This document shows, piece after piece, positions 8,352-19,791 of a stretch of 24,258 bases of DNA. The stretch is from a bacterium (GTDB lineage: Bacteria; UBP14; UBA6098; 4484-93). Location: assembly GCA_021158465.1 (NCBI GenBank), contig JAGGUN010000038.1, positions 1 to 24,258 on the forward strand. The letters are read 5' to 3'. How positions within the stretch are numbered: the stretch's first letter is position 1; each line of letters begins with the position of its first letter. A model generated the notes under the pieces. It had not been told where the DNA came from. It searched no databases and saw only the letters and a list, made by a program, of their open reading frames with translations. A program made the translations under genes and the position numbers.

Positions 8352-10084
8352 TTGACCGAGATATTTACCGGTGTCAAGAACAGGGCTTCTCCATCCTGGA
8401 AAAGCTCATACTCTCTGGCTGCTTTATACAGCTCCAGTACTGGGGTGGGTATGTCCAGAACCTTTGATATTCCAAGCTCAAGCACAAACTCAAGCAACTC
8501 TTTTCCCCTCGGATACTCGACGATATTCACATCCCTGCGGGAGAGGTTCTCGTTCTTGAGTATGCAGTCTATTGCATCGTTCAGTCCTCCAAGGCGGTCG
8601 ACAAGCCCGAATGTGATAGCTTCTCTTCCAGTGTAGACCCTGCCGCGAGCGAGTGGTTCAAGCTCATCAAAGCTCTTTTTCCTGTCTCTTGCTGCCTTTT
8701 CTACAAAGTCGTTGTAAACATCCTCGATATATCTCTTTATGAATTCGTATTCCTCAGGTGTGAGCTTCTCGTAGTCGCTTGCGAGCCCTGAGTGCTTACC
8801 TCGATAGATGCTGACATCCTTTCTCATTCCCAATTTCTCGTATAAGCCTTTGAGTGACGGCTTTCCGTAGAGCACACCTATCGAACCTGTGATGGTCATC
8901 GGTTCGACAAATATCGAATCACAAGCCATGGCGATGTAGTATCCTCCTGATGCTGCAATAGATGCCATAGATGCAATGACAGGCTTTTTATCTTTTGCGT
9001 ACTGGACAGCATTCCTGATTATATCGCTTGCCAGTGCACTCCCGCCACCTGAGTCGACGCGCAGGATTATCCCGATGATATCATCATCGTCTGCGGCATC
9101 TTTGAGCGCCTTTGCGTATGTTTTCGAGCCGATACTGGCTGAAGCACCAAAATACCCTGGCTTGCTCTCCCCTGTGTGTATAGTGCCGGAGGCATAAATC
9201 ACGGCAATCTTCTTCTCTCGAGGAGGGAAGCTCATTTCTCTCTCGGTGATGTATTTCAAGAAACCTGTGATATTCTCCTCATCTCCTGCCAGTTCTTGCT
9301 CTATCTCCTCGTAGTCGATGGGGTAGATAAGTGAATCAACCAGTCCCAGTTTTTTAGCCTCTTTGGCGGTGATGATCCCGCTGTCGATGCAGGAGATGAG
9401 CACAGATGTATCGATGCTCCTCGCCTCGGCAATCTCACGGATTGTCTGCCGATAGAGCGTATCCACAAGAGCGGTGTACACCTCTCTGCTTTCGGGCGAG
9501 AGGGTGTCAGAGACGAACGGGTCGAGTCCGTCCTTGTACTCCTTCATCTTGACGATATCCCACTGGATGCCCAGCTTGTCCATCGTTCCCTTAAAGAAGA
9601 TCGGTTCAACCCTTATCCCAGGAACGATAAGCTCTCCTGTCGGCGGGATGAACACCCTCTCACAAGAGCTGGCAAGAAGAAGTGTCCCAAGGGTGTAATA
9701 GTCTGAGTAAATGTAAACGGGCTTCCCCGTTTCCTCACGGAACCTCTTAATTCCGTCTGTTAGTTCTTCCACCTTTGCCATGCCGATGATGGGGGAGTTA
9801 AGCACGATGGATATGCCTTTTATCCTCTCGTCGTTCCTTGCATACTCGAATGTCTCGAGCAGGCTCTCGAAATCCTTTGGTTTCCTGAATCTGACGAAGA
9901 ATTGCGGGTATCTCCCAGGTGAGCGCTCCTCGAATCGCCCCTTCATATCGACCCTCACGACAAGCTTATGCCCCAGCTTTATCTTCGGCTTGAACGCATG
10001 TATCCTGCTTTTCAGCGTGAGAAAATTAAACAAAAAGAATAGTATAAGTAGAATGAGAATTATAGCAAGTACCCATTTCTTCAC
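8348..10084 (-). CDS. sppA: Signal peptide peptidase SppA, long (67-kDa) type
   Basis: 578 aa from the GTG at 10084. SppA is an inner-membrane serine protease facing the periplasm that degrades leftover signal peptides. One N-terminal membrane helix (WVLAIILILLILFFLFNFL) is followed by two tandem SppA/ClpP-like domains. The catalytic Lys184 is in EYKDGLDPF of the first domain and the Ser379 in AASGGYYIA of the second, 195 residues apart, close to the 200 of the E. coli enzyme (K209/S409). The segment RVDSGGGSALASD has Gly where Pro is usual in SPGG. Start choice: AAGGAGG at 10099-10093 lies 8 nt before the GTG; an in-frame TTG at 10111 lacks such a site and would leave almost no leader after the predicted promoter. 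First gene of the sppA-PorV-nth-pyrG chain. Confidence 0.95.
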   Translation of the reverse strand: MKKWVLAIILILLILFFLFNFLTLKSRIHAFKPKIKLGHKLVVRVDMKGRFEERSPGRYPQFFVRFRKPKDFESLLETFEYARNDERIKGISIVLNSPIIGMAKVEELTDGIKRFREETGKPVYIYSDYYTLGTLLLASSCERVFIPPTGELIVPGIRVEPIFFKGTMDKLGIQWDIVKMKEYKDGLDPFVSDTLSPESREVYTALVDTLYRQTIREIAEARSIDTSVLISCIDSGIITAKEAKKLGLVDSLIYPIDYEEIEQELAGDEENITGFLKYITEREMSFPPREKKIAVIYASGTIHTGESKPGYFGASASIGSKTYAKALKDAADDDDIIGIILRVDSGGGSALASDIIRNAVQYAKDKKPVIASMASIAASGGYYIAMACDSIFVEPMTITGSIGVLYGKPSLKGLYEKLGMRKDVSIYRGKHSGLASDYEKLTPEEYEFIKRYIEDVYNDFVEKAARDRKKSFDELEPLARGRVYTGREAITFGLVDRLGGLNDAIDCILKNENLSRRDVNIVEYPRGKELLEFVLELGISKVLDIPTPVLELYKAAREYELFQDGEALFLTPVNISVK

Positions 10085-10092
10085 CTTAACTT

Positions 10093-10099
10093 CCTCCTT
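10093..10099 (-). promoter_or_regulatory. Ribosome binding site that sets the sppA start
   Basis: AAGGAGG on the minus strand, 8 nt upstream of GTG 10084. It lies inside the reading frame that an upstream TTG (10111) would open, so it favours the GTG. Confidence 0.75.
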
Positions 10100-10121
10100 G
10101 CTTACCTTCAAATAATTCTCT

Positions 10122-10149
10122 AAAATAAGTCAAAAAAGTTTTTTTGCAA
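10122..10149 (-). promoter_or_regulatory. Possible promoter of the sppA operon
   Basis: On the minus strand TTGCAA (10149-10144) and TATTTT (10127-10122) are separated by 16 bp. The predicted transcript would start near 10115 and leave a leader of about 30 nt before the GTG at 10084. Confidence 0.45.
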
Positions 10150-10170
10150 GTTATTTTCCCGAGTGAAGTT

Positions 10171-10281
10171 TGCAACTAATTTTGTGTAAACTTGAGGGGA
10201 TGAGGATAGTCATAAGTTTTTTGTTTTTGGTTTCCCCTGCTGGGGAGTTTTTTTACCTCCCCCAATTACACAAAATAAGTT
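10171..10281 (+). repeat. Intergenic repeat copy A, with terminal inverted repeats (MITE-like)
   Basis: The 16-bp arms AACTAATTTTGTGTAA (10174-10189) and TTACACAAAATAAGTT (10266-10281) are inverted repeats with one mismatch and enclose 76 bp. The interior has a G-rich block, a conserved GGATAGTCATAAG block (10204-10216), a TCCCC/GGGGA hairpin and runs of T. 10171-10271 aligns with 12076-12169 (copy B) in the same orientation: the first 20 bases are identical, and a 37-base block from 10204 has one mismatch. It has no coding sequence and no clear target-site duplication. The size and structure suggest a small non-autonomous mobile element, which is inference. Confidence 0.7.
10232..10254 (+). 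terminator. Terminator-like hairpin within repeat copy A
   Basis: TCCCC (10233-10237), loop TGCT, GGGGA (10242-10246), then G and seven T. It reads on the plus strand, yet no plus-strand gene precedes it closely. It may be part of the repeat rather than a working terminator here. Confidence 0.45.
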
Positions 10282-10308
10282 ATGATCTCGTTGGTAAAAA
10301 ATTTTTCC

Positions 10309-10338
10309 TTGACTATAGTGTTTGTTTCACGAGATTAT
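10309..10338 (+). promoter_or_regulatory. Possible promoter of the symporter gene
   Basis: TTGACT (10309-10314) and GATTAT (10333-10338) with an 18-bp spacer, about 27 nt before the ATG at 10365. It lies just outside repeat copy A. Confidence 0.4.
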
Positions 10339-10354
10339 TCGGTTTCCAAAAAGT

Positions 10355-10359
10355 GAGGG
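10355..10359 (+). promoter_or_regulatory. Ribosome binding site that sets the symporter start
   Basis: GAGGG with a 5-nt gap to ATG 10365. It decides against a start about 65 codons upstream, inside the intergenic repeat. Confidence 0.65.
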
Positions 10360-10364
10360 CGAAA

Positions 10365-11693
10365 ATGAGTCAAAAACGCAATGTTGAGCTATTTTTTGCC
10401 ATCGTGGCGGTGTCGGTGATCACTATGTTTCTCCCTATTCAGGGGCTTTCGCTAGCGGGGAAAAGGGCTCTGGGAGTGTTCATGTTTGCGGCGCTGTGCT
10501 GGATAACAGAGGTGATTCCTATCGCTGCCACCGGCGGAATAGTGGTAGGACTTCTGGCGTTTCTTCTGCCGCCGGTGTTGAACGGAGTTAGTGTGAGAAC
10601 CTTCTATGCAGCATTTTCGGCGCCGGTGATTGTGCTTTTCGCTGGGGGATATTTCATTGCGGCGGCGGTTCAGAAATACCGTATGGATGGGATTTTCACC
10701 GCCTGGATCTTGCGCCGAACAGGGACAGAGCCCAAGATGGTTTTAGGCGGGATGATGTTTGCTGCGGCGTTTCTGTCTATGTGGATGTCCAACACGGCGA
10801 CCACAGCGCTGATGATTGCCGTTGCTCTGCCAGTGGTGAGAAAAATCAAGGACGACCCTTTCAGCGTGGCGCTTTTGTTGGGGATACCCTTTGCGGCAAA
10901 TGTCGGCGGGATTGCAACGCCGATCGGGACGCCGCCAAACGCTATCGCAATTGAGTTTTTAGCCGATGCGGGCAAAAAAATCTCCTTCGGGCAATGGTTT
11001 ATGTGGGGTTTCCCGATAACGCTGGCGATGACCGTAATTATCTGGTATCTTCTGAGAATATTTTTCCAGCCGAAGGTCAAAGAAATCAAGTTTGAGACCA
11101 GGGATATAAAGTTCACGACGAACCACAAAATCGTCGCCATCACATTTGCTGTAACTGCGATACTATGGTTCACCGAGAAACTGCACGGGGTTTCAACCTC
11201 GCTTGTGGCGATGCTTCCGCCGGCGGTATTCTTAATCACCGGCGTGCTGACCCGCCAGGACATAAAGACCTCTGTCGGCTGGGATATACTGATTCTGGTG
11301 GCGGGCGGAATCGCTCTGGGGACTGGAATGAAGGTCAGCGGGCTCTCCGAGTGGATTCTGACCACCTTCCACCTGAAGGCACTCTCGCCGGTGGTGGTTA
11401 TACTGCTGTTCGGGATACTATCTCTTGCTCTCTCGTCGTTTATGAGCCACACTGCGGCAACAAACCTGCTTATCCCCCTTGCGATTTCGGTGGGGACTTC
11501 TGTCTCGCAGGTCGTGGTGATGACTGCGTTAGTGTCCTCGTGTGCTATGATTTTCCCCGTGTCCACGCCGCCGAACGCAATCGCCTATGGCTCGGGGATG
11601 ATAAAATCCTCGGATATGAACAAAGCCGGTGTTGTAATTGCTCTAATCGGATTTATATTGAATTATGTGGTGGTTCAACTTTTAGTAAGATAA
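10365..11693 (+). CDS. DASS/SLC13-family sodium:anion (dicarboxylate or sulfate) symporter
   Basis: 442 aa from ATG 10365, the normal family size. The reading frame is open further upstream to 10170, but that part is the intergenic repeat. The protein is an inner-membrane carrier with about 11-12 hydrophobic segments and the inverted two-fold family signature. The first half has MSNTATTALMIAVALPV and ATPIGTPPNAIAIEFL; the second half has SHTAATNLLIPLAISV and PVSTPPNAIAYGSGM. These SNT/SHT and TPPN motifs form the sodium and substrate sites. Substrate (di- or tricarboxylate, or sulfate) cannot be told from sequence here. Codon use is unlike the neighbours: by hand count about 19 of ~50 Leu codons are CTG, against fewer than 10 in rpsA. 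The gene and its downstream partner lie between two repeat copies, suggesting acquisition as a cassette. Confidence 0.92.
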   Translation: MSQKRNVELFFAIVAVSVITMFLPIQGLSLAGKRALGVFMFAALCWITEVIPIAATGGIVVGLLAFLLPPVLNGVSVRTFYAAFSAPVIVLFAGGYFIAAAVQKYRMDGIFTAWILRRTGTEPKMVLGGMMFAAAFLSMWMSNTATTALMIAVALPVVRKIKDDPFSVALLLGIPFAANVGGIATPIGTPPNAIAIEFLADAGKKISFGQWFMWGFPITLAMTVIIWYLLRIFFQPKVKEIKFETRDIKFTTNHKIVAITFAVTAILWFTEKLHGVSTSLVAMLPPAVFLITGVLTRQDIKTSVGWDILILVAGGIALGTGMKVSGLSEWILTTFHLKALSPVVVILLFGILSLALSSFMSHTAATNLLIPLAISVGTSVSQVVVMTALVSSCAMIFPVSTPPNAIAYGSGMIKSSDMNKAGVVIALIGFILNYVVVQLLVR

Positions 11694-11705
11694 AAGGGGA
11701 GAGAT

Positions 11706-12062
11706 ATGGCAAGCAATTTCTCGTATGTCAGGTTGGAGCACTGCCCGAAATGCGGTTCAACCGAGTGTGAGAACATATTTGCGCTGTTCCCCTGCAGACC
11801 GGTGCAGGTATATGTAAGGTGCAAAAAGTGTGGTGGTTTTGTGGCAAGATATACTCTTTTGCGCTACACCTCAGACAAACCTTACGAGTCGCTTTTGAGC
11901 GCGATAAGATGTCCCTGTTCAAGCGGGAGGCAGATGGTTCGCGAGCTTGAGGCGTTCTCCGGGGAGGTTGAGGCGGATTTTAAAAAGGTTCTGGAACTGC
12001 TTGAAAGCGGCGAGGACAAGCGCAAAATTGAAGAGATTATCGCCGAAAGACGCGGTGAGTGA
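11706..12062 (+). CDS. Cysteine-rich protein with zinc-ribbon-like motifs, unrecognised family
   Basis: 118 aa; not recognised. An N-terminal ribbon is suggested by CPKC (13-16) and CKKC (39-42, in VRCKKCGGFVARY), with Cys21, Cys30, Cys69 and Cys71 (CPC) as extra candidate ligands. Residues ~56-66 (SDKPYESLLSA) look like a conserved linker. Residues ~78-115 are charged and likely helical, possibly a coiled coil (LEAFSGEVEADFKKVLELLE). There is no signal peptide or membrane segment, so it is cytoplasmic. The ATG follows a good GGGGAGAG site only 12 nt after the symporter stop, so the two form an operon, and both lie between the repeat copies. A metal-dependent accessory or regulatory role for the carrier is a guess from context only. 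Confidence 0.78.
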   Translation: MASNFSYVRLEHCPKCGSTECENIFALFPCRPVQVYVRCKKCGGFVARYTLLRYTSDKPYESLLSAIRCPCSSGRQMVRELEAFSGEVEADFKKVLELLESGEDKRKIEEIIAERRGE

Positions 12063-12075
12063 TACTACAAAAGTC

Positions 12076-12169
12076 TGCAACTAATTTTGTGTAAATCCTA
12101 GGGATAGTCATAAGTTTTTTGTCTTTGGTTTCCCCTGCCGAGGAGGTTTTTTAACTCCCCTGATTACAC
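12076..12169 (+). repeat. Intergenic repeat copy B, right arm degenerate
   Basis: This is the second copy of the repeat at 10171-10271 in the same orientation. The left arm AACTAATTTTGTGTAA (12079-12094) is identical; the right arm keeps only TTACAC and nearby AATAA. It is shorter by about seven bases in the G-rich segment after the left arm (CCTAGGGATAG here). It lies between the cysteine-rich gene and the cmk promoter. Confidence 0.7.
12131..12152 (+). terminator. Terminator-like hairpin in repeat copy B, after the symporter operon
   Basis: CCCCT (12132-12136), loop GCCG, AGGAGG (12141-12146) pair with one C-A mismatch, followed by six T. It is correctly placed to end transcription of the symporter/cysteine-rich pair, about 70 nt past the stop, and before the cmk promoter. 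Confidence 0.5.
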
Positions 12170-12183
12170 CGAGGAATAACTTC

Positions 12184-12211
12184 TTGACAATTTGGAATGA
12201 AGTTATATATT
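12184..12211 (+). promoter_or_regulatory. Sigma70-like promoter of cmk-rpsA
   Basis: Consensus TTGACA (12184-12189) and TATATT (12206-12211) with a 16-bp spacer, about 26 nt before the cmk ATG. Confidence 0.65.
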
Positions 12212-12236
12212 TGCTGTTTATTTTGTCAGGGGGGAG

Positions 12237-12902
12237 ATGTTGATAATAGCGATTGATGGACCGGCTGGTGCAGGCAAGACAACGCTTGCTCGTGCGCTCG
12301 CTGATAGGTTGGGGTATGCCTATCTTGACACTGGTGCGATGTATCGTGCTTTGACTCTTGTTGCGATAAGAGAAGGCATTAACCCGGAGGACGAGGAGCG
12401 GCTTTTTGAGAGGGCGAAACAGCTTTCCTTTCGGTTTGAGGGGAGAAGGTTGTTTGTGGATGGTGACGATGTTACGAGAGAGATTCGCTCCCGCTCGGTG
12501 AGCAATCTGGTTTCTGTTGTCTGTCAGCATAGGAAGGTGCGTGAGCTGATGGTATCTCTCCAGAGGCAACTTGCCAAGAAAGGGGGTGTTGTCGTTGAGG
12601 GTAGAGACATAGGAACGGTAGTTTTCCCTGAAGCTGATCTCAAGATATACCTTGATGCCTCGCTCTCCGAGAGGGTAAGTCGGAGGGCAGAAGATCTTGA
12701 GAAGCTTGGGGAGGGGGTAGAGTTAGAGAAGGTGAAGCAGGAGATACAGGAAAGGGACAGACTTGATTCCACGAGGGATGTTGCCCCTTTGAGGAAGGCT
12801 TGCGATGCCATCCTTCTCGACAATACGAACCTTTCTTTGGAAGAGGAGGTAGTCGCAATCGAGCGGTTGATTAAACCTATGACCAAAAAGGAGATGGTAT
12901 GA
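12237..12902 (+). CDS. cmk: Cytidylate kinase
   Basis: 221 aa, normal length. It phosphorylates CMP and dCMP with ATP in pyrimidine nucleotide recycling. The P-loop GPAGAGKTT (8-16) is at the N-terminus; LDTGAMYRALTL (35-46) is the CMP-binding segment; VVEGRDIGTVVFP (118-130) is the family signature; the lid region has RDRLDSTRDVAPL. The GGGGGAG ribosome site is only 2-3 nt from the ATG at 12237, so the next codon, TTG at 12240, may be the real start; this changes one residue. The stop overlaps the rpsA start in ATGA. The cmk-rpsA pair is a widely conserved arrangement. Confidence 0.96.
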   Translation: MLIIAIDGPAGAGKTTLARALADRLGYAYLDTGAMYRALTLVAIREGINPEDEERLFERAKQLSFRFEGRRLFVDGDDVTREIRSRSVSNLVSVVCQHRKVRELMVSLQRQLAKKGGVVVEGRDIGTVVFPEADLKIYLDASLSERVSRRAEDLEKLGEGVELEKVKQEIQERDRLDSTRDVAPLRKACDAILLDNTNLSLEEEVVAIERLIKPMTKKEMV

Positions 12903-14752
12903 GTTTTCAAGAGGAAAACACCCCTGAGCCACAGGAGCTTGGTATTTCTGTGGTTGAGGAATTTGGGGATACAAAGGAGGAAGAAGAGTTTGTTGTTCCT
13001 GAGGAGGATGCGAAACAGATATCAGAAAGCATCCATGAGATTCGGGAGAACGAGATAGTCAAAGGGACGGTTGTTAGTGTAGGCAAGGACGCTGTGGTTG
13101 TTGATATAAACTTCAAGCAGGATGGTTTTATACCGCTTGAGGAGTTTCGTGAGGTTCCCAAGGTTGGTGATGAGGTATCTGTTTATATTGAGAAGCTTGA
13201 GGATACCAACGGTGAGCTTGTATTATCGAAGAAGAAGGCGGACTTCATCCTTCTCTGGGATACGGTGCGCGAGGCGTATGAGTCAGGGGGTCTTATTCGA
13301 GGTGTCTGTAAGCGCCGGATCAAAGGAGGGATAGTTGTTGACCTTATGGGTGTGGACGCTTTTCTGCCGGGTTCTCAGATTGCGTTGCGCCAGGTGCCCG
13401 ATTTCGATGCTTTGATCGGGCAGGAGATGGAGTTTAAGGTAGTGAAGATAAACAAGCTTCGCCGAAATATAGTTGTTTCCCGTCGGGCTGTTCTTGAGCA
13501 GGAGCGGGCGGAGAAGCGCAAGGAACTGCTCTCGCAGATAGAGGTAGGTGGAGTATATGAAGGCGTTGTTAAGAACATAACGGATTTTGGTGTCTTTGTT
13601 GACCTTGGTGGTCTGGATGGTCTTCTTCACATCACCGATATGTCCTGGGGCAGGGTAAATCATCCATCTGACCTTGTAAGTCTTGGTGACACTATAAAGG
13701 TTAAGATACTTGACTTTGACCGTGAGCGAGAGCGGATATCGCTTGGTATGAAGCAGTTGACGCCGTCCCCCTGGGAGAAGATAGCTGAGAAGTATCCTCC
13801 TGGTACGCGCGCCCGGGGTAAGGTTACCAACATTACGAAGTATGGTGCTTTTGTTGAGCTTGAGGAGGGGGTTGAAGGGTTAGTTCACATATCTGAGCTT
13901 TCCTGGACAGAGCGGATCGAGCATCCGTCACAGGTGTTAAAGGTTGGTGAGGTAATCGATGTGGTTGTTCAGGATGTTGATGTAGAGAATCAGAAGGTTT
14001 CGCTTTCTGTGCGTGCGCTTGAGCCTGATCCATGGACTGTCATCGAGCAGAAGTATAAAAAAGGGTCGCGTGTCAGCGGTGTGGTGCGGAATATAACATC
14101 GTTTGGTGCGTTTGTTGAGTTAGAGAAAGGGATTGATGGGCTTATTCATATTTCTGATCTGTCCTGGACACGACGGGTTCAGCATCCGAGTGAGATTCTG
14201 AAGAGGGGACAGAAGGTAGAGGTTGTTGTGCTTGAGGTTGACCGGAAGAATAAGCGTATCTCGCTTGGTTACAAGCAGTTGGAGAACGACCCTTGGCCCA
14301 CGCTCTCCTCAAAATATCCACCTGGTCGGGAAACAACAGGCAAGATTGTTCGTCTTTCCGAGCGGGGTGTTATTGTTGAGCTTCCAGATGGTGTTGAGGG
14401 GTTTGTTCCAGTGACGCAGCTGGGTAAGGAGGTCAACAAGCCTTCCGATGCGTTCAGTGTTGGAGATGTTCTACCGATGAAGGTGATAGAGTTCGACGGC
14501 AAGGCACATAGGATAGTGCTTTCTGTGAATGCGTATTTTGAGTCGAAGGAGAAAGACGAACTGTCCAGGTATCTTGCCAGGCACCCAACAAGGACGCTGA
14601 AGGTAAAAGATGTGCTTAAGGGTAACCTCCCAGATGCGGAGGAGGTGGTGAGGAGGTCGGAAGAACCCGAACCTGAAAATGGAGAGGATATTCCAGAGGA
14701 CAAGTCTTCGGAGATGAAGGAAGATCAGAAGAAAACCGAAGAAGAGAAGTGA
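12899..14752 (+). CDS. rpsA: 30S ribosomal protein S1
   Basis: 617 aa with six S1 (OB-fold) domains, the long form. S1 brings mRNA to the 30S subunit. Domain starts are visible at residues ~54 (IVKGTVVSVG), ~130 (LIRGVCKRRIKGG), ~217 (YEGVVKNITDFGVFVDL), ~302 (ARGKVTNITKYGAFVEL), ~389 (VSGVVRNITSFGAFVEL) and ~476 (TGKIVRLSERGVIVEL). Domains 3-5 carry the strong GLxHIxxxSW motif; domains 1, 2 and 6 are more divergent. Both ends of the protein are rich in Glu and Asp. The start overlaps cmk by 4 nt. Leu codons are mostly CTT, a useful baseline for the window. The OmpA gene follows after 45 nt. Confidence 0.97.
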   Translation: MSFQEENTPEPQELGISVVEEFGDTKEEEEFVVPEEDAKQISESIHEIRENEIVKGTVVSVGKDAVVVDINFKQDGFIPLEEFREVPKVGDEVSVYIEKLEDTNGELVLSKKKADFILLWDTVREAYESGGLIRGVCKRRIKGGIVVDLMGVDAFLPGSQIALRQVPDFDALIGQEMEFKVVKINKLRRNIVVSRRAVLEQERAEKRKELLSQIEVGGVYEGVVKNITDFGVFVDLGGLDGLLHITDMSWGRVNHPSDLVSLGDTIKVKILDFDRERERISLGMKQLTPSPWEKIAEKYPPGTRARGKVTNITKYGAFVELEEGVEGLVHISELSWTERIEHPSQVLKVGEVIDVVVQDVDVENQKVSLSVRALEPDPWTVIEQKYKKGSRVSGVVRNITSFGAFVELEKGIDGLIHISDLSWTRRVQHPSEILKRGQKVEVVVLEVDRKNKRISLGYKQLENDPWPTLSSKYPPGRETTGKIVRLSERGVIVELPDGVEGFVPVTQLGKEVNKPSDAFSVGDVLPMKVIEFDGKAHRIVLSVNAYFESKEKDELSRYLARHPTRTLKVKDVLKGNLPDAEEVVRRSEEPEPENGEDIPEDKSSEMKEDQKKTEEEK

Positions 14753-14797: not shown

Positions 14798-16078
14798 ATG
14801 CAGAGGGCAGTCCTTTCCTGGAAGGTGTTATTGAGGGTAGTCATTATTCTCATACTGTTTTCGTTTTTTTTCTGGTTTTCCCTTGCCTTTGGGAGCTCGG
14901 GGAGCCTTTATTTCTTGTTTGGATTTGGTGGAGCGCTTCCGGATTCAGGAGCACTGGAGCCTGCGGTCTCTTTGGGTGCTGGTTTTACCAAGGGACATTT
15001 TATCTCCCCTGTTTCCATTGCTCTATCCGACACGGGGTATACTCTTAGTGTTGATGGGCTTTTTGAGACGGTATCAGGTTCCTTCTCGAGGCTCGGGCTC
15101 GGTCTTGGAGTAGATTACTGCTCTTCTGGGGTTGGGGTTGGACCGTCTCTTATGTTTATCAGGCGGTTTTCTCCCTCCTGGGGAGTTGGATTTTTGGGAA
15201 GGTATCTTCTGGGTTCTGGTGACAGGATGAACAGGTTTTCCTTTGGGGTGTCTATTCTCTGGTATCCAGGGATTAGCGATTCTGACCGTGACGGTGTTCC
15301 GAACGGTTCTGATCGCTGTCCTGCTACCCCTCTGGGTGCGGAGGTTGATAGGTTCGGTTGTGCTATCGACGCAGATAGGGATGGCGTCTTTGATGGTCTT
15401 GATAGGTGTCCGGATACACCGTATCTTGCGATAGTTGACAGCACCGGATGCCCTATTGATACTGATGGTGACGGTGTGTTTGATGGGGTTGATGTCTGTC
15501 CTGATACCCCGTCCGGTATGGCTGTGGATTCTGTTGGTTGCCCGGAGGATTCTGATGCGGATGGAGTACCTGATTTTGAAGATACCTGCCCAGACACGCC
15601 TTTCGGTGCGACCGTTGACAGATTCGGTTGTCCGAGTGACTCTGATGACGATGGTGTATATGATGGTCTTGACCGATGCCCTATGACGCCGCTTGAGGTT
15701 AAGGTCGATGAGTTCGGCTGTCCACTTATACCGCCAGTTAAGAGGATAGTGATAACAGAGGCGTTTGACGAGAACGGCAATCTGCCGGAATGGTGTGTTG
15801 ATTCCCTCCGTTCAGTAGCTGAGATGATATTTGCCTATCCCAATGTATCTATTGAACTTTTGGTCTACACCGATGGTGAGGGTAGTTTCCTTTACAATAT
15901 AAATCGTGCTACCCGTGTTATCGGGAAGATAAAAGGGATATTTAAGGAAAAGGGAGTTTCCGTTGATAAGATAAGATTTGTGGCAAAAGGAGAGGTAGAC
16001 CCGATAGCAGATAATTCCACTGCATCCGGCAGGATGAGAAACCGCCGGATCATTATAGTAGGGAAGGTTGAGGAATAA
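14798..16078 (+). CDS. OmpA-family protein with five thrombospondin type 3 repeats
   Basis: 426 aa. A signal peptide or anchor lies in the first ~35 residues (VVIILILFSFFFWFSLAFG). Residues ~36-155 are rich in Gly, Ser and aromatics like a small beta-barrel. Residues 161-310 hold five 30-residue repeats of the form DSDxDGVxDGxDxCPxTPxGxxVDxxGCP, which bind calcium and carry two Cys each. Residues ~312-420 are an OmpA-like domain, degenerate at the peptidoglycan site: VYTDGEG in place of GHTD, YNINRATRV in place of YNxxLSxxRA, but MRNRRIIIV is kept. The protein would link outer membrane to cell wall. The ribosome site before ATG 14798 is poor (GAGGA about 14 nt away), so the start is less sure. 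The longer paralogue follows 22 nt downstream. Confidence 0.85.
   Translation: MQRAVLSWKVLLRVVIILILFSFFFWFSLAFGSSGSLYFLFGFGGALPDSGALEPAVSLGAGFTKGHFISPVSIALSDTGYTLSVDGLFETVSGSFSRLGLGLGVDYCSSGVGVGPSLMFIRRFSPSWGVGFLGRYLLGSGDRMNRFSFGVSILWYPGISDSDRDGVPNGSDRCPATPLGAEVDRFGCAIDADRDGVFDGLDRCPDTPYLAIVDSTGCPIDTDGDGVFDGVDVCPDTPSGMAVDSVGCPEDSDADGVPDFEDTCPDTPFGATVDRFGCPSDSDDDGVYDGLDRCPMTPLEVKVDEFGCPLIPPVKRIVITEAFDENGNLPEWCVDSLRSVAEMIFAYPNVSIELLVYTDGEGSFLYNINRATRVIGKIKGIFKEKGVSVDKIRFVAKGEVDPIADNSTASGRMRNRRIIIVGKVEE
15278..15727 (+). repeat. Five tandem 90-bp coding repeats (TSP3 units, shorter OmpA paralogue)
   Basis: Five in-frame units of 30 codons, each beginning with a DxDxDG calcium loop and ending in GC(P). 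The units are diverged at DNA level but keep exact length. Confidence 0.85.
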
Positions 16079-16100
16079 AGTAAGATAGGGGGAGATTGAG

Positions 16101-18140
16101 ATGAGGAAGCTTGGATTAGTGGTTTTAGTTCTGCTTGTTTTTGCCTCTGGTTTGAAAGCGGGACTTATGAAGGAGCGGTTTGGTCTTGGAGCGGGCTGGT
16201 CGGTGGGCAAGCACTGGTCGAACTATGACTATATAGCTATCGGTCAGGACTGGTGGGGGCATCTGAAGTTCGGCGTGCTGGATGAGCTGGAGGTTGGTTT
16301 TCAGGGCGGGTATATGGTAGACTGGCCTGCAACGAATATCGACGAGGCTCCGTTTCGTATGAAGCTTGCCACCGGTGATACGCTCCCCTATGGTGTCATT
16401 ATTTGTAGGCAACCTTCTGGGATGAACAACGATAACCGTCCTTACCGTGTGAAACCCGATGGTAACAGGGATAGAGCTGTTGGGCTTTCATTCGAGAAAG
16501 GGTCTCTTCCCTTCCATTACGAGTATATCCCGCTTGAGCTTTTTATTCAGGCGAGAGCCCTTGCAAGGTCTATCTTCAACCCGTTTATGACTGTCGGTTT
16601 CGGCAGGACATCCTGGTCGGTAAAAGATAATGAGACAGGTAAGGTGTTCGATGTTCTTGACCAAGATGACAACTGGAAACCGTTTAAGGGAGAGATGTAT
16701 AATCTGTTGTTTGGGATAGGGTTTGAGGTTTTTCCTGTGAATGATGTTGGTATCACGGTTCTTGCTCAGACTCGCTACTTCTTTGCCGATGAGTTCACGC
16801 AGTATGTTTTTGATACACTTGGTGCCCAGACAGATTTGGGTGCGCGATTGACCTTCTATTACGGTGGCATCAAAGATTCGGACAGGGATGGTGTTCGGGA
16901 CAACAAGGATGAGTGTCCTGATACCCCGTTTGGTGCCATAGTTGATGAGCAGGGGTGTCCAATGGACTCTGATGGTGATGGGGTATTCGATGGTCTTGAC
17001 CTCTGCCCGAACACGCCTTCCAGAGCGATTGTTGATGCCAAAGGTTGCCCGAAGGATTCCGATGGAGATGGTGTCTACGATGGAATAGATAGGTGTATGG
17101 ATACTCCGGCGGGGGCGAAGGTAGATTCCGTTGGATGCCCTGTGGATTCAGACAGCGACGGCATTCCTGACTACAAGGACCGCTGCCCGAATACGCCCAT
17201 TGGCGCTCTTGTTGGGGAGTTTGGTTGCCCGAAGGATTCCGATGGTGATGGTGTTTATGATGGGTTAGACCTCTGCCCAAATACTCCACCTGGCACTCCT
17301 GTGAACCTCAACGGTTGTGAGGTCAAGCCTGGTGACTCCGATGGAGATGGTATCCCTGACGATAAGGACAAGTGTCCTGATACTCCATCAGGTGTCAGGG
17401 TTGATGCCTCGGGTTGTCCTGTTGATATGGATGGCGACGGCATTCCCGACTACAAGGACCGCTGCCCGAGAACACCGGAGAGAGCGATAGTGGATACCTT
17501 CGGTTGTCCAATGGATACGGACAACGACGGGGTTTACGATGGAATCGATAAATGTCCCAGCACTCCCTCAGGGGTTCAGGTTGATTCTCTCGGTTGTCCG
17601 ATGGATTTAGATGGAGATGGGGTGTACGATGGCACGGACAGGTGTCCGGGTACGCCGCGTGGTGCTTTGGTCGATGCCTCAGGTTGTCCGAAGGATTCCG
17701 ATGGAGATGGTGTCTATGACGGTTTGGACAAGTGTCCCAATACTCCTGCTGATGTAGAGGTTGATTCTGTTGGCTGTCCTAAGGTGAGGAAGCTTGAGAA
17801 GGGGGAATCGATTCGGGTGAAGGTGTATTTTGAAACAGCGAAGTGGGATATCACTCCCAAGGGTGAAGAAGACCTGCAAGAGGTTCTTATGATGCTGAAG
17901 GCGTATCCGGAGATGCGGATTCTGATCGAGGGGCATACAGACAATGTGGGTGGTGAGAAATATAATCTTGAACTTTCTACCAAGCGAGCGCTTTCGGTAA
18001 AGAACTGGCTGGTTGAGCACGGTATTGACCCGTCACGCCTTGAGACCAAAGGTTTCGGCTATTCGCGCCCTGTTGACACAAATGAGACGCCAGAGGGTAG
18101 GGCAAACAACAGGAGGATCGAGTTCAGGCGGATTGACTGA
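16101..18140 (+). CDS. OmpA-family protein with ten thrombospondin type 3 repeats
   Basis: 679 aa. ATG 16101 follows GGGGGAG; the signal peptide is MRKLGLVVLVLLVFASGLKA. Residues ~21-255 resemble an outer-membrane barrel with many aromatic-bounded strands (FMTVGFGRTSW, VGITVLAQTRYFF, LGARLTFYYGG). Residues 259-561 hold ten TSP3 units, nine of 30 residues and the fifth of 33. Residues ~565-679 are a full OmpA-like peptidoglycan-binding domain: VYFETAKWDITPKG, IEGHTDNVGGEKYNLELSTK then RA, and EGRANNRRIEF. It likely tethers the outer membrane to the cell wall across an unusually long calcium-stiffened spacer (roughly 300 residues). Tandem with the five-repeat paralogue. The stop overlaps the next gene by 1 nt (TGATG). 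Confidence 0.93.
   Translation: MRKLGLVVLVLLVFASGLKAGLMKERFGLGAGWSVGKHWSNYDYIAIGQDWWGHLKFGVLDELEVGFQGGYMVDWPATNIDEAPFRMKLATGDTLPYGVIICRQPSGMNNDNRPYRVKPDGNRDRAVGLSFEKGSLPFHYEYIPLELFIQARALARSIFNPFMTVGFGRTSWSVKDNETGKVFDVLDQDDNWKPFKGEMYNLLFGIGFEVFPVNDVGITVLAQTRYFFADEFTQYVFDTLGAQTDLGARLTFYYGGIKDSDRDGVRDNKDECPDTPFGAIVDEQGCPMDSDGDGVFDGLDLCPNTPSRAIVDAKGCPKDSDGDGVYDGIDRCMDTPAGAKVDSVGCPVDSDSDGIPDYKDRCPNTPIGALVGEFGCPKDSDGDGVYDGLDLCPNTPPGTPVNLNGCEVKPGDSDGDGIPDDKDKCPDTPSGVRVDASGCPVDMDGDGIPDYKDRCPRTPERAIVDTFGCPMDTDNDGVYDGIDKCPSTPSGVQVDSLGCPMDLDGDGVYDGTDRCPGTPRGALVDASGCPKDSDGDGVYDGLDKCPNTPADVEVDSVGCPKVRKLEKGESIRVKVYFETAKWDITPKGEEDLQEVLMMLKAYPEMRILIEGHTDNVGGEKYNLELSTKRALSVKNWLVEHGIDPSRLETKGFGYSRPVDTNETPEGRANNRRIEFRRID
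16875..17783 (+). repeat. Ten tandem coding repeats (TSP3 units, longer OmpA paralogue)
   Basis: Nine units of 90 bp and one of 99 bp. Some units are close at DNA level: the segments from 17157 and from 17436, 279 bp (three units) apart, are almost identical over about 35 bp, and units 3 and 10 open with the same GATTCCGATGGAGATGGTGT block. This suggests local copying between units. Confidence 0.88.
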
Positions 18141-18988
18141 TGGAGAAAAGCTATCTTCTGCTCATAATTCTTTGGGTGTGGGTTCTGGTTTTTGTCAGCT
18201 GTTCGGTGCTGGCTGAGCCCTCTTTTGTGGATACCGTTTTCGCCGACACAGATCTCCATCGGATGGATGTGAGCCGGGTGGATCCTTACCGTCTTGCCAT
18301 ATTCTCCGGGGTAGTGGTTGGGCTTTCTGCTTACAGTATAGACCAGTTTCAGGAGATATGGGGTCGCTCTACCGGTAGGTTTCATTTCAAGGAGCACGAC
18401 TGGAACGGCGATAATCTTGCCCAGTCCGACGAGGTAAGCCATCTTGTTCTCGGCTACAGGGCAACTCAGCTGGGGATAAATTTTGCCCGGTGGACAGGGA
18501 TGTCGGATGGGTTGAGCCGTGCGGTTGGAGCAGGTATCTCTGCCTTTTATATGACTTTGGTGGAATATCCTATCGATGCTTACAACCCCTACCAGGGGCT
18601 TGGTATATCCGACCTTATTTTCGACTATGTGGGGGTTGGCTTTGGACTGCTCCGGGACAAATATGAACCCCTTCGCCAATACGATATGAAGATAGAGGTG
18701 AAGGATGTTAGAAAGGTTCCCAAGAAGTTCTTTTCTCAGAGCAATCGGGAGTATGATTACTATATCTACTGGTTGACATACTCACCCTATCTGGGAGATG
18801 TTCCGTTGAACTTCGGTGTCGGCTATTCGACCGACCACTCAGATTGGAGAAATGTCAAGCGGGAGCTTTGGCTCGGCGTGGGAACGAGCGTCACAGATGT
18901 CGGCTACCTCTTTGGCGCGCGCTGGAGGCAGCTTCTTGATGTGTTGGGGTTGCTTGAGTTCTCCCTAAGAGTGCAGGTTCTCCGATGA
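18140..18988 (+). CDS. DUF2279/YfiM-like envelope protein, first paralogue
   Basis: 282 aa. An N-terminal signal peptide covers ~1-25 (LLLIILWVWVLVFVSCSVLA). The core matches the YfiM/DUF2279 type as I recall it, a poorly characterised family placed in the envelope: RFHFKEHDWNGDNLAQSDEV then SHL, ARWTGMSDGLSRAVGAGIS, VEYPIDAYNP, and GISDLIFDYVGVGFG. Conserved acidic and His residues lie in DE-x-x-H and EYPxDAY. The C-terminal ~90 residues (YYIYWLTYSP, PLNFGVGYS, ELWLGVGTS) look beta-rich. The start is fixed by TGATG overlap with the OmpA stop. The next gene is a paralogue overlapping by 4 nt. Function unknown; context with OmpA proteins suggests outer membrane or periplasm. Confidence 0.8.
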   Translation: MEKSYLLLIILWVWVLVFVSCSVLAEPSFVDTVFADTDLHRMDVSRVDPYRLAIFSGVVVGLSAYSIDQFQEIWGRSTGRFHFKEHDWNGDNLAQSDEVSHLVLGYRATQLGINFARWTGMSDGLSRAVGAGISAFYMTLVEYPIDAYNPYQGLGISDLIFDYVGVGFGLLRDKYEPLRQYDMKIEVKDVRKVPKKFFSQSNREYDYYIYWLTYSPYLGDVPLNFGVGYSTDHSDWRNVKRELWLGVGTSVTDVGYLFGARWRQLLDVLGLLEFSLRVQVLR

Positions 18989-19791
18989 GGGGTATTCTTG
19001 CTGTCCTTCTTATACTTGCTCTGGCCTCAACTTCTCTTGCCTCGGTGGATGCATCCGTGTCGGATAGTTCTTTACATAAGCCCTCGCCCTTGAAGATTGG
19101 GATCTATTCGGCTGCTGTTGCCTCTGTTGTATCCTATTCACTGCTCAAGTTCTACTCTGTTTGGGACACAACGCATGTTGGTTTCCACTTTAAGAAGGAT
19201 GATTTAAGAGGTGATAGGCTTCTTTTGCTCGATGAGGTTGCACACCTGTTTGGAGCTTACGCCTTCGTGCGGGCAGGGGCAGGACTTTCGAGATGGGCGG
19301 GATTAAGCGAGAAGACAAGCATACTTGCCGGCGTCGGTATCTCGTTTTTTGTTATGACATTTATGGAGTATCCGCTCGATGCTTACAAGCCGAACGAGGG
19401 TGTTTCCATAAGCGACCTTGCGTTTGATTATGCCGGCACGGCTATCGGTGTCTTGAGGGAAGCGACGCCTGCTCTTCACAATTTCGACATCAAGGTCGGT
19501 TTTGAGAACCTCTCTCGCATTCCCCCGGAGTTTCTTCCTCGTTCGACACCCGAGCATGGCGTGTTCGTCTACTGGCTCACATATTCTCCCGCACCAGAAT
19601 CCTTACCGCTCAATATCGGGCTCGGATATTCGGTCCGCCACGACGAGCGAAGGCAACCTCATCATGAGTGGTATGTTGGTGTGGGCACGAGTTTGACCGA
19701 ACTTTCAAAGAGGTTTTTGGGGAAATACGCAAGCGATTTTGAGTATCTTGGTGTTGTTGAGGTTGCTCTGACAGCGAAGATTGTTGATTAG
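18985..19791 (+). CDS. DUF2279/YfiM-like envelope protein, second paralogue
   Basis: 268 aa with signal peptide MRGILAVLLILALASTSLA. It aligns along its length with the preceding protein, about 40% identical by eye in the core: GFHFKKDDLRGDRLLLLDEV then AHL, SRWAGLSEKTSILAGVGIS, MEYPLDAYKP, SISDLAFDYAGTAIG, then YWLTYSP, PLNIGLGYS and YVGVGTSLTEL. The shared invariants (FHFK, GD, DE-V-x-H, RW-x-G, EYPxDAY, ISDLxFDY) mark likely functional residues. The ATG overlaps the previous stop (ATGA), so it is a coupled tandem duplicate. It ends the long plus-strand run; no convincing terminator hairpin follows before the tRNA promoter at 19800. Confidence 0.8.
   Translation: MRGILAVLLILALASTSLASVDASVSDSSLHKPSPLKIGIYSAAVASVVSYSLLKFYSVWDTTHVGFHFKKDDLRGDRLLLLDEVAHLFGAYAFVRAGAGLSRWAGLSEKTSILAGVGISFFVMTFMEYPLDAYKPNEGVSISDLAFDYAGTAIGVLREATPALHNFDIKVGFENLSRIPPEFLPRSTPEHGVFVYWLTYSPAPESLPLNIGLGYSVRHDERRQPHHEWYVGVGTSLTELSKRFLGKYASDFEYLGVVEVALTAKIVD

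Follow-up and report, generated by a model that had tools for sequence, protein, structure and literature searches.

A putative MITE-bounded IS256-type composite carrying a symporter operon between sppA and cmk in a candidate-phylum bacterium

Introduction

Composites in which two MITEs enclose other genes have a demonstrated precedent in TIME-COMP, Tn3-derived MITE composites of which one carries its MITEs in direct orientation (PMC4133298; PMC13367494). MITEs are likewise known to bracket class 1 integrons of Acinetobacter (reviewed in PMC10969869). The IS256 family (p-MULT 1) is defined by inverted repeats of 18-39 bp with a terminal C, and in the systematic 2014 study of Mutator-like prokaryotic transposases its insertions were random, with no enrichment at promoters (PMC3942029). 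Insertion upstream of promoters, peaking at a distance of 16 bp from the right end, was described for TnGBS/ISLre2 (p-MULT 3) and for part of ISKra4 (p-MULT 4); these elements lie 15-17 bp upstream of the sigma-A -35 box, and in TnGBS/ISLre2 the right end faces the promoter (PMC3942029). A fixed promoter distance has thus been reported for relatives of the IS256 group and not for IS256 itself, and we found no later report of promoter-targeted IS256 insertion in the open-access literature. In the TnGBS, ISLre2 and ISKra4 transposases, a signature between the N1 and N2 domains is linked to promoter targeting.

The locus described here resembles TIME-COMP in having two MITEs (direct or inverted in TIME-COMP) around cargo without transposition functions, 2-4 kb in that system, where the unit is moved by a transposase acting in trans. 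It differs in that its ends are IS256-derived rather than Tn3-derived, it is found on a chromosomal contig from a member of a small candidate phylum, its cargo is a metabolic transporter, and we infer its mobility. Like the Acinetobacter integrons, it has acquired genes with a MITE at each terminus, although MITE sequence and cargo are unrelated and no integron is present. MITE-bounded composites have so far been mainly Tn3-derived and found on resistance plasmids; here a metabolic operon has apparently moved between families of an uncultured phylum.

Results

Genomes compared

The window, that is the whole stretch of DNA analyzed (24,258 nucleotides), is the entire contig C22 of G000, a draft genome of 2.04 Mb with a bin completeness of 97.6% and 0 contamination. 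All genomes used for comparison are drafts. The genus is represented by two genomes, G000 and G001 (the sole other member compared), whose pyrG products are 96% identical; the corresponding value for G000 and G014 is 72%. G014 belongs to the same class and to a different family, f3, which also includes G010 (MAG AUK226) and G016 (MAG B30_G16).

Two direct repeats flank a symporter and a Cys-rich gene

The original prediction described a pair of ~100-bp repeats in the same orientation around a DASS symporter and a cysteine-rich gene. Such a pair is indeed present, with a full size of ~100-124 bp once its limits are set by comparison with related copies:

10165-10289 (about), + strand: MITE copy A, both ends intact (alignment to copy B and to G010 and G016 elements)
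10165-10189, + strand: R-end of copy A, on its left side (23-nt R-end 100% identical in several G010 copies)
about 10266-10289, + strand: L-end of copy A, on its right side (alignment to related elements)
12071-12169 (about), + strand: MITE copy B, same orientation as A, outer (right) L-end truncated past TTACAC (alignment to A and to G010 and G016 elements)

The copies are 90% identical in a 68-bp core, 96% in the 25-bp left end and 82% overall with indels; compared with A and related copies, B lacks the terminal ~18-20 bp of its right end. The predicted 16-bp inverted ends of copy A, with one mismatch, were readily identified (AACTAATTTTGTGTAA / AACTTATTTTGTGTAA), and span ~24 bp when judged against related copies. 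A search of the whole G000 genome recovered A and B and no further copy. A 24-nt match in G001 (L008) falls in an apparently coding region and was taken as chance.

Both repeats had also been said to carry a hairpin followed by a T-run. This is present in copy A, but the region has 4 terminator-like sites where shuffled sequences have 2.7 +/- 1.8, and T-run hairpins are therefore weak evidence for a cassette. Only copy A folds better than its shuffles (z -2.9/-4.2); for B, z is -0.6/+0.1. The folding of A, and the location of each repeat 5' of a gene, would suit duplicated regulatory leaders such as riboswitches or attenuators. However, B folds at chance level, the only Rfam match in the window is one tRNA, with neither repeat matched, and the repeats lie upstream of the promoters, outside the transcripts. 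Copies in G010 precede unrelated genes and hold transposase fragments, and the G010 and G016 copies with transposase pieces refute a riboswitch or attenuator; we give duplicated leaders a negligible chance.

The repeats belong to a family of IS256-type MITEs

Using a G010 copy of ~509 bp as query, we obtained 40 matches in G010, 6 in G016, 2 in G000 and 0 in the 14 remaining genomes of the phylum. The 23-mer of the copy A R-end recurs exactly at several sites in G010 and G016, and an exact scan of 84,980 species genomes returned 15 contigs, of which MAGs AUK226 and B30_G16 account for 10. In line with the proposal of a dispersed element, the repeat belongs to a family dispersed in related genomes, with two copies only in its own. 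Examples of the degenerate IS256-type element and its MITEs in G010 are found at L014 1018-1526, L105 2734-2870 and L107 3060-3565.

On G016:C190, the same two ends as those of the window repeats enclose a transposase reading frame, which matches the profiles PF00872 (7.9e-34) and NF033543 (3.4e-36). A second piece covers the region of the C-terminal RTTNTIESIF motif, the NF033543 values across fragments being 3.4e-36 and 2.2e-20. All these matches are to fragments from related copies and do not reach the full-length cut-off (150 bits); as the transposase is known solely as broken fragments, its IS256 placement relies on its catalytic part and its C-terminal part. An intact transposase was not found in G010, nor an intact N-terminal half in the related copies. 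A scan against NCBIfam to E 10 returned IS256, IS1249, ISH6, ISL3 and IS481, and no ISLre2 or ISKra4. Models for the latter two are contained in the NCBIfam library.

Because the same ends enclose IS256 transposase pieces, we identify the repeats as MITEs in which the R- and L-ends of an IS256-type element are joined. In line with this, the 124-bp copy A has inverted ends of ~24 bp and no coding capacity, and homologous ends surround the transposase pieces. About 60 nt of the window-copy L-end can be aligned with the G010 and G016 elements, and the alignment takes in the GGAAACCAAA box and the position of the hairpin. The outer terminus is CTC or CCC in most copies. End length (~24 bp) and terminal C both lie within the IS256 definition, and the element also has the transposase profile and the TTACACA-type ends in common with IS256. 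The G010 and G016 copies derive by deletion from a single element, whose transposase is of the IS256 family; no target duplication was seen by eye at the degenerate copies.

The transposase fragment, compared with 386 genomes, found besides G016 only one relative (28%, in G025), and no PF00872 protein was found in G000. Among plasmids, transposase relatives are no closer than about 30% identity; among viral contigs, neither the end sequence nor a transposase relative was matched.

The sppA-cmk junction is intact in a relative

The cassette had been predicted to sit between sppA and cmk, and G001 confirms this with an intact junction that lacks the 2.0-kb block. Window positions 8723-10157 and 12164-14394 map to adjacent G001 bases, with sppA and cmk as neighbors on one G001 contig, and the flanking genes on both sides of the block have 83-93% amino acid identity to G001. 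The junction reads ..GTTATTTTGCAACAAGGAATAAC.. in G001, and ..GTTATTTTCCCGAGTGAAGTTTGCAAC.. (left) and ..GATTACACCGAGGAATAAC.. (right) in the window, where the following features surround the insertion:

10153-10164, no strand: left outer flank TTTTCCCGAGT, whose CCGAG is found again on the right (seen against the empty G001 junction)
12169-12183, no strand: outer junction on the right, CCGAGGAATAACTTC, reaching the -35 box of cmk (seen against the empty G001 junction)
10120-10148, - strand: pre-existing sppA promoter TTGCAA-16-TATTTT, -35 box 16 nt from the copy A R-end
12184-12211, + strand: pre-existing cmk promoter TTGACA-16-TATATT, conserved in G001

As to a target duplication, only CCGAG is common to the outer flanks, versus 8-9 bp in the IS256 family. 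It may be the remnant of such a duplication; as the end of B is eroded, a clean 8-9-bp duplication is not demonstrable.

The cargo is an operon of foreign origin

Between the repeats we identified the following features:

10297-12062, + strand: cargo, comprising promoter, 5' UTR, symporter and Cys-rich gene (88% DNA identity to G014:C323)
10309-10338, + strand: symporter promoter TTGACT-18-GATTAT (conserved in G014)
10365-11693, + strand: DASS-family sodium-coupled anion symporter, 442 aa (TIGR00785, E 6.9e-84; PF00939, PF03600)
11706-12062, + strand: Cys-rich zinc-ribbon-like protein, 118 aa (tblastn adjacency to the symporter)

The nearest solved structures of the symporter are Pho90 and VcINDY, and the Cys-rich protein has no significant Pfam or NCBIfam family. 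According to tblastn, the Cys-rich gene adjoins a DASS symporter also in G014, G002 and G005 (four genomes and three families in all), and since the two genes are neighbors in G002 and G005 as well, where the pair has 43-54% identity, they form an old operon; the Cys-rich protein may be a partner of the transporter. The 18-bp spacer of the symporter promoter, predicted to differ from the 16 bp elsewhere, does so from that of cmk, and the conservation of this promoter in G014 indicates that it traveled with the cargo.

Amino acid identity to G014 is 90% for the symporter and 88% for the Cys-rich gene. At the DNA level, homology to G014:C323 covers window 10298-12058 at 88% with none outside: it spans the symporter promoter and stops close to the repeats, no more than ~12 bp from A and ~10-15 bp from B. 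The dxs product encoded on this G014 contig has 57% identity to that of G000 and 63-71% to those of other f3 genomes, and being closer to f3 members than to G000 it shows that the contig is not misbinned. The symporter is absent from G001, and no plasmid DNA matched the cargo. Taken together, the comparisons support a cargo of foreign origin that arrived as a unit. We infer family f3 or a relative of it as the source, because G014, the nearest cargo relative, and the MITE-rich G010 and G016 all belong to f3. In G014 the pair adjoins a tRNA-Ser gene (G014:C323, L101 3433-3525) and is without repeats; this site is possibly an integration hot spot.

Codon usage had been put forward as a sign of acquisition. 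The symporter is CTG-rich relative to rpsA (CTG/Leu 0.38 versus 0.16), but pyrG (0.33) and a PorV-like gene (0.42) in the same window are similar, and its GC3 of 0.62 is slightly above the window range of 0.44-0.59. With CTG share and GC3 so near those of other window genes, the foreign origin is undetectable from composition alone.

Two further explanations bear on this contrast between cargo and flanks. If the cassette were ancestral in the genus and had been lost in G001, GCAAC at the G001 junction, which is present in the MITE end too, could be its scar, and the genus sample comprises only two genomes. Yet the 90% identity to another family, against 57-72% for housekeeping products, requires transfer in any case, and CCGAG is common to the outer flanks; an ancestral cassette is improbable. 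An assembly or binning artefact, by which the cassette of another organism was joined at the repeats, would agree with a draft genome that has repeats at the junctions and no other copy of the family. Against it stand the similarity of both flanks to G001 and the quality of the bin, and the cargo, 12% diverged from G014, is therefore not contamination by the latter. We consider such an artefact very improbable.

Right ends lie at a fixed distance from promoters

We mapped 24 distinct R-ends and took their outside flanks irrespective of context. A TTG (-35) lies exactly 16 nt from the R-end in 14 of the 24 copies, a count reached in none of 5000 shuffles (shuffle maximum 6; binomial ~5e-15 after 40 offsets), and in 13 of 22 without the two window copies. 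At a 16-bp spacer the -10 hexamer follows, with its first T in 20/24 and its last T in 19/24 copies (e.g., TTGACA-16-TATAAT). Among the ~40 G010 matches, most mapped right ends are 16 nt upstream of a promoter. L-ends show a weak tendency (4/26; 262 of 5000 shuffles equally high). Copy A fits the rule, as its R-end is 16 nt from the TTGCAA-16-TATTTT promoter of the divergent sppA, while copy B departs from it, its R-end facing the end of the Cys-rich gene, where there is no promoter.

This oriented insertion upstream of promoters is what TnGBS/ISLre2 and ISKra4 display, with the difference that the transposase here matches IS256 and not p-MULT 3 or 4; from IS256 itself, the fixed distance sets the element apart, as insertion of that family is random (PMC3942029). 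Promoter-directed transposition was previously thought to be limited to two other Mutator-like branches, and its appearance in an IS256-type element suggests that it goes further back or evolved more than once.

A single insertion is the preferred reading

We propose that 10165-~12170 is a MITE-bounded IS256-type composite, with the two-gene symporter operon as cargo, inserted once after the split from G001 (probability roughly 0.58). Two direct-orientation IS256-type MITEs around a symporter operon from a related family would have formed a ~2-kb unit; a transposase acting in trans would have brought together the two outer ends, the R-end of A and the L-end of B, and the A-cargo-B unit would have been pasted in one event between the divergent promoters of sppA and cmk. 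The R-end of A would thereby have come to lie upstream of the -35 box of sppA at 16 nt, the distance typical for the element family. The outer end of B would have eroded after insertion, which would leave the unit immobile and fixed, and the symporter would be transcribed from its own imported promoter. The empty site, the foreign cargo and the MITE/IS family in relatives support the original idea of a small mobile or recombination-acquired cassette.

Several observations count against transposition as a unit: there is no clean 8-9-bp duplication, the R-end of B is not at a promoter, the identity between A and B is only 82%, the G014 cargo has no repeats, and neither an intact autonomous element nor a donor composite was found. 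Alternatively, a MITE may have inserted first between the sppA and cmk promoters, followed by MITE-linked cargo through homologous recombination between MITEs. This would produce an identical geometry of two direct copies, and in some G010 and G016 MITEs a TTG lies close to each of the two ends (e.g., L142, L148 and L134), so that a lone MITE would be typical of the divergent sppA-cmk junction. It demands, however, two events, and that the one resident copy of an otherwise copy-free genome was at precisely this site, and the longest identical tract of A and B today is only about 20 nt. We regard this two-step route as a tentative alternative, with a chance well below even.

Other features of the window

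Tandem paralogous membrane proteins with an overlap of a few bases are encoded at 18140-19791, the first of which was tested and has no Pfam family. An open frame for a large secreted protein (2-2446, - strand) runs off the contig end. Two adjacent OmpA-like genes at 14798-18140 contain thrombospondin type 3 repeats with a 90-bp unit (9 copies reported).
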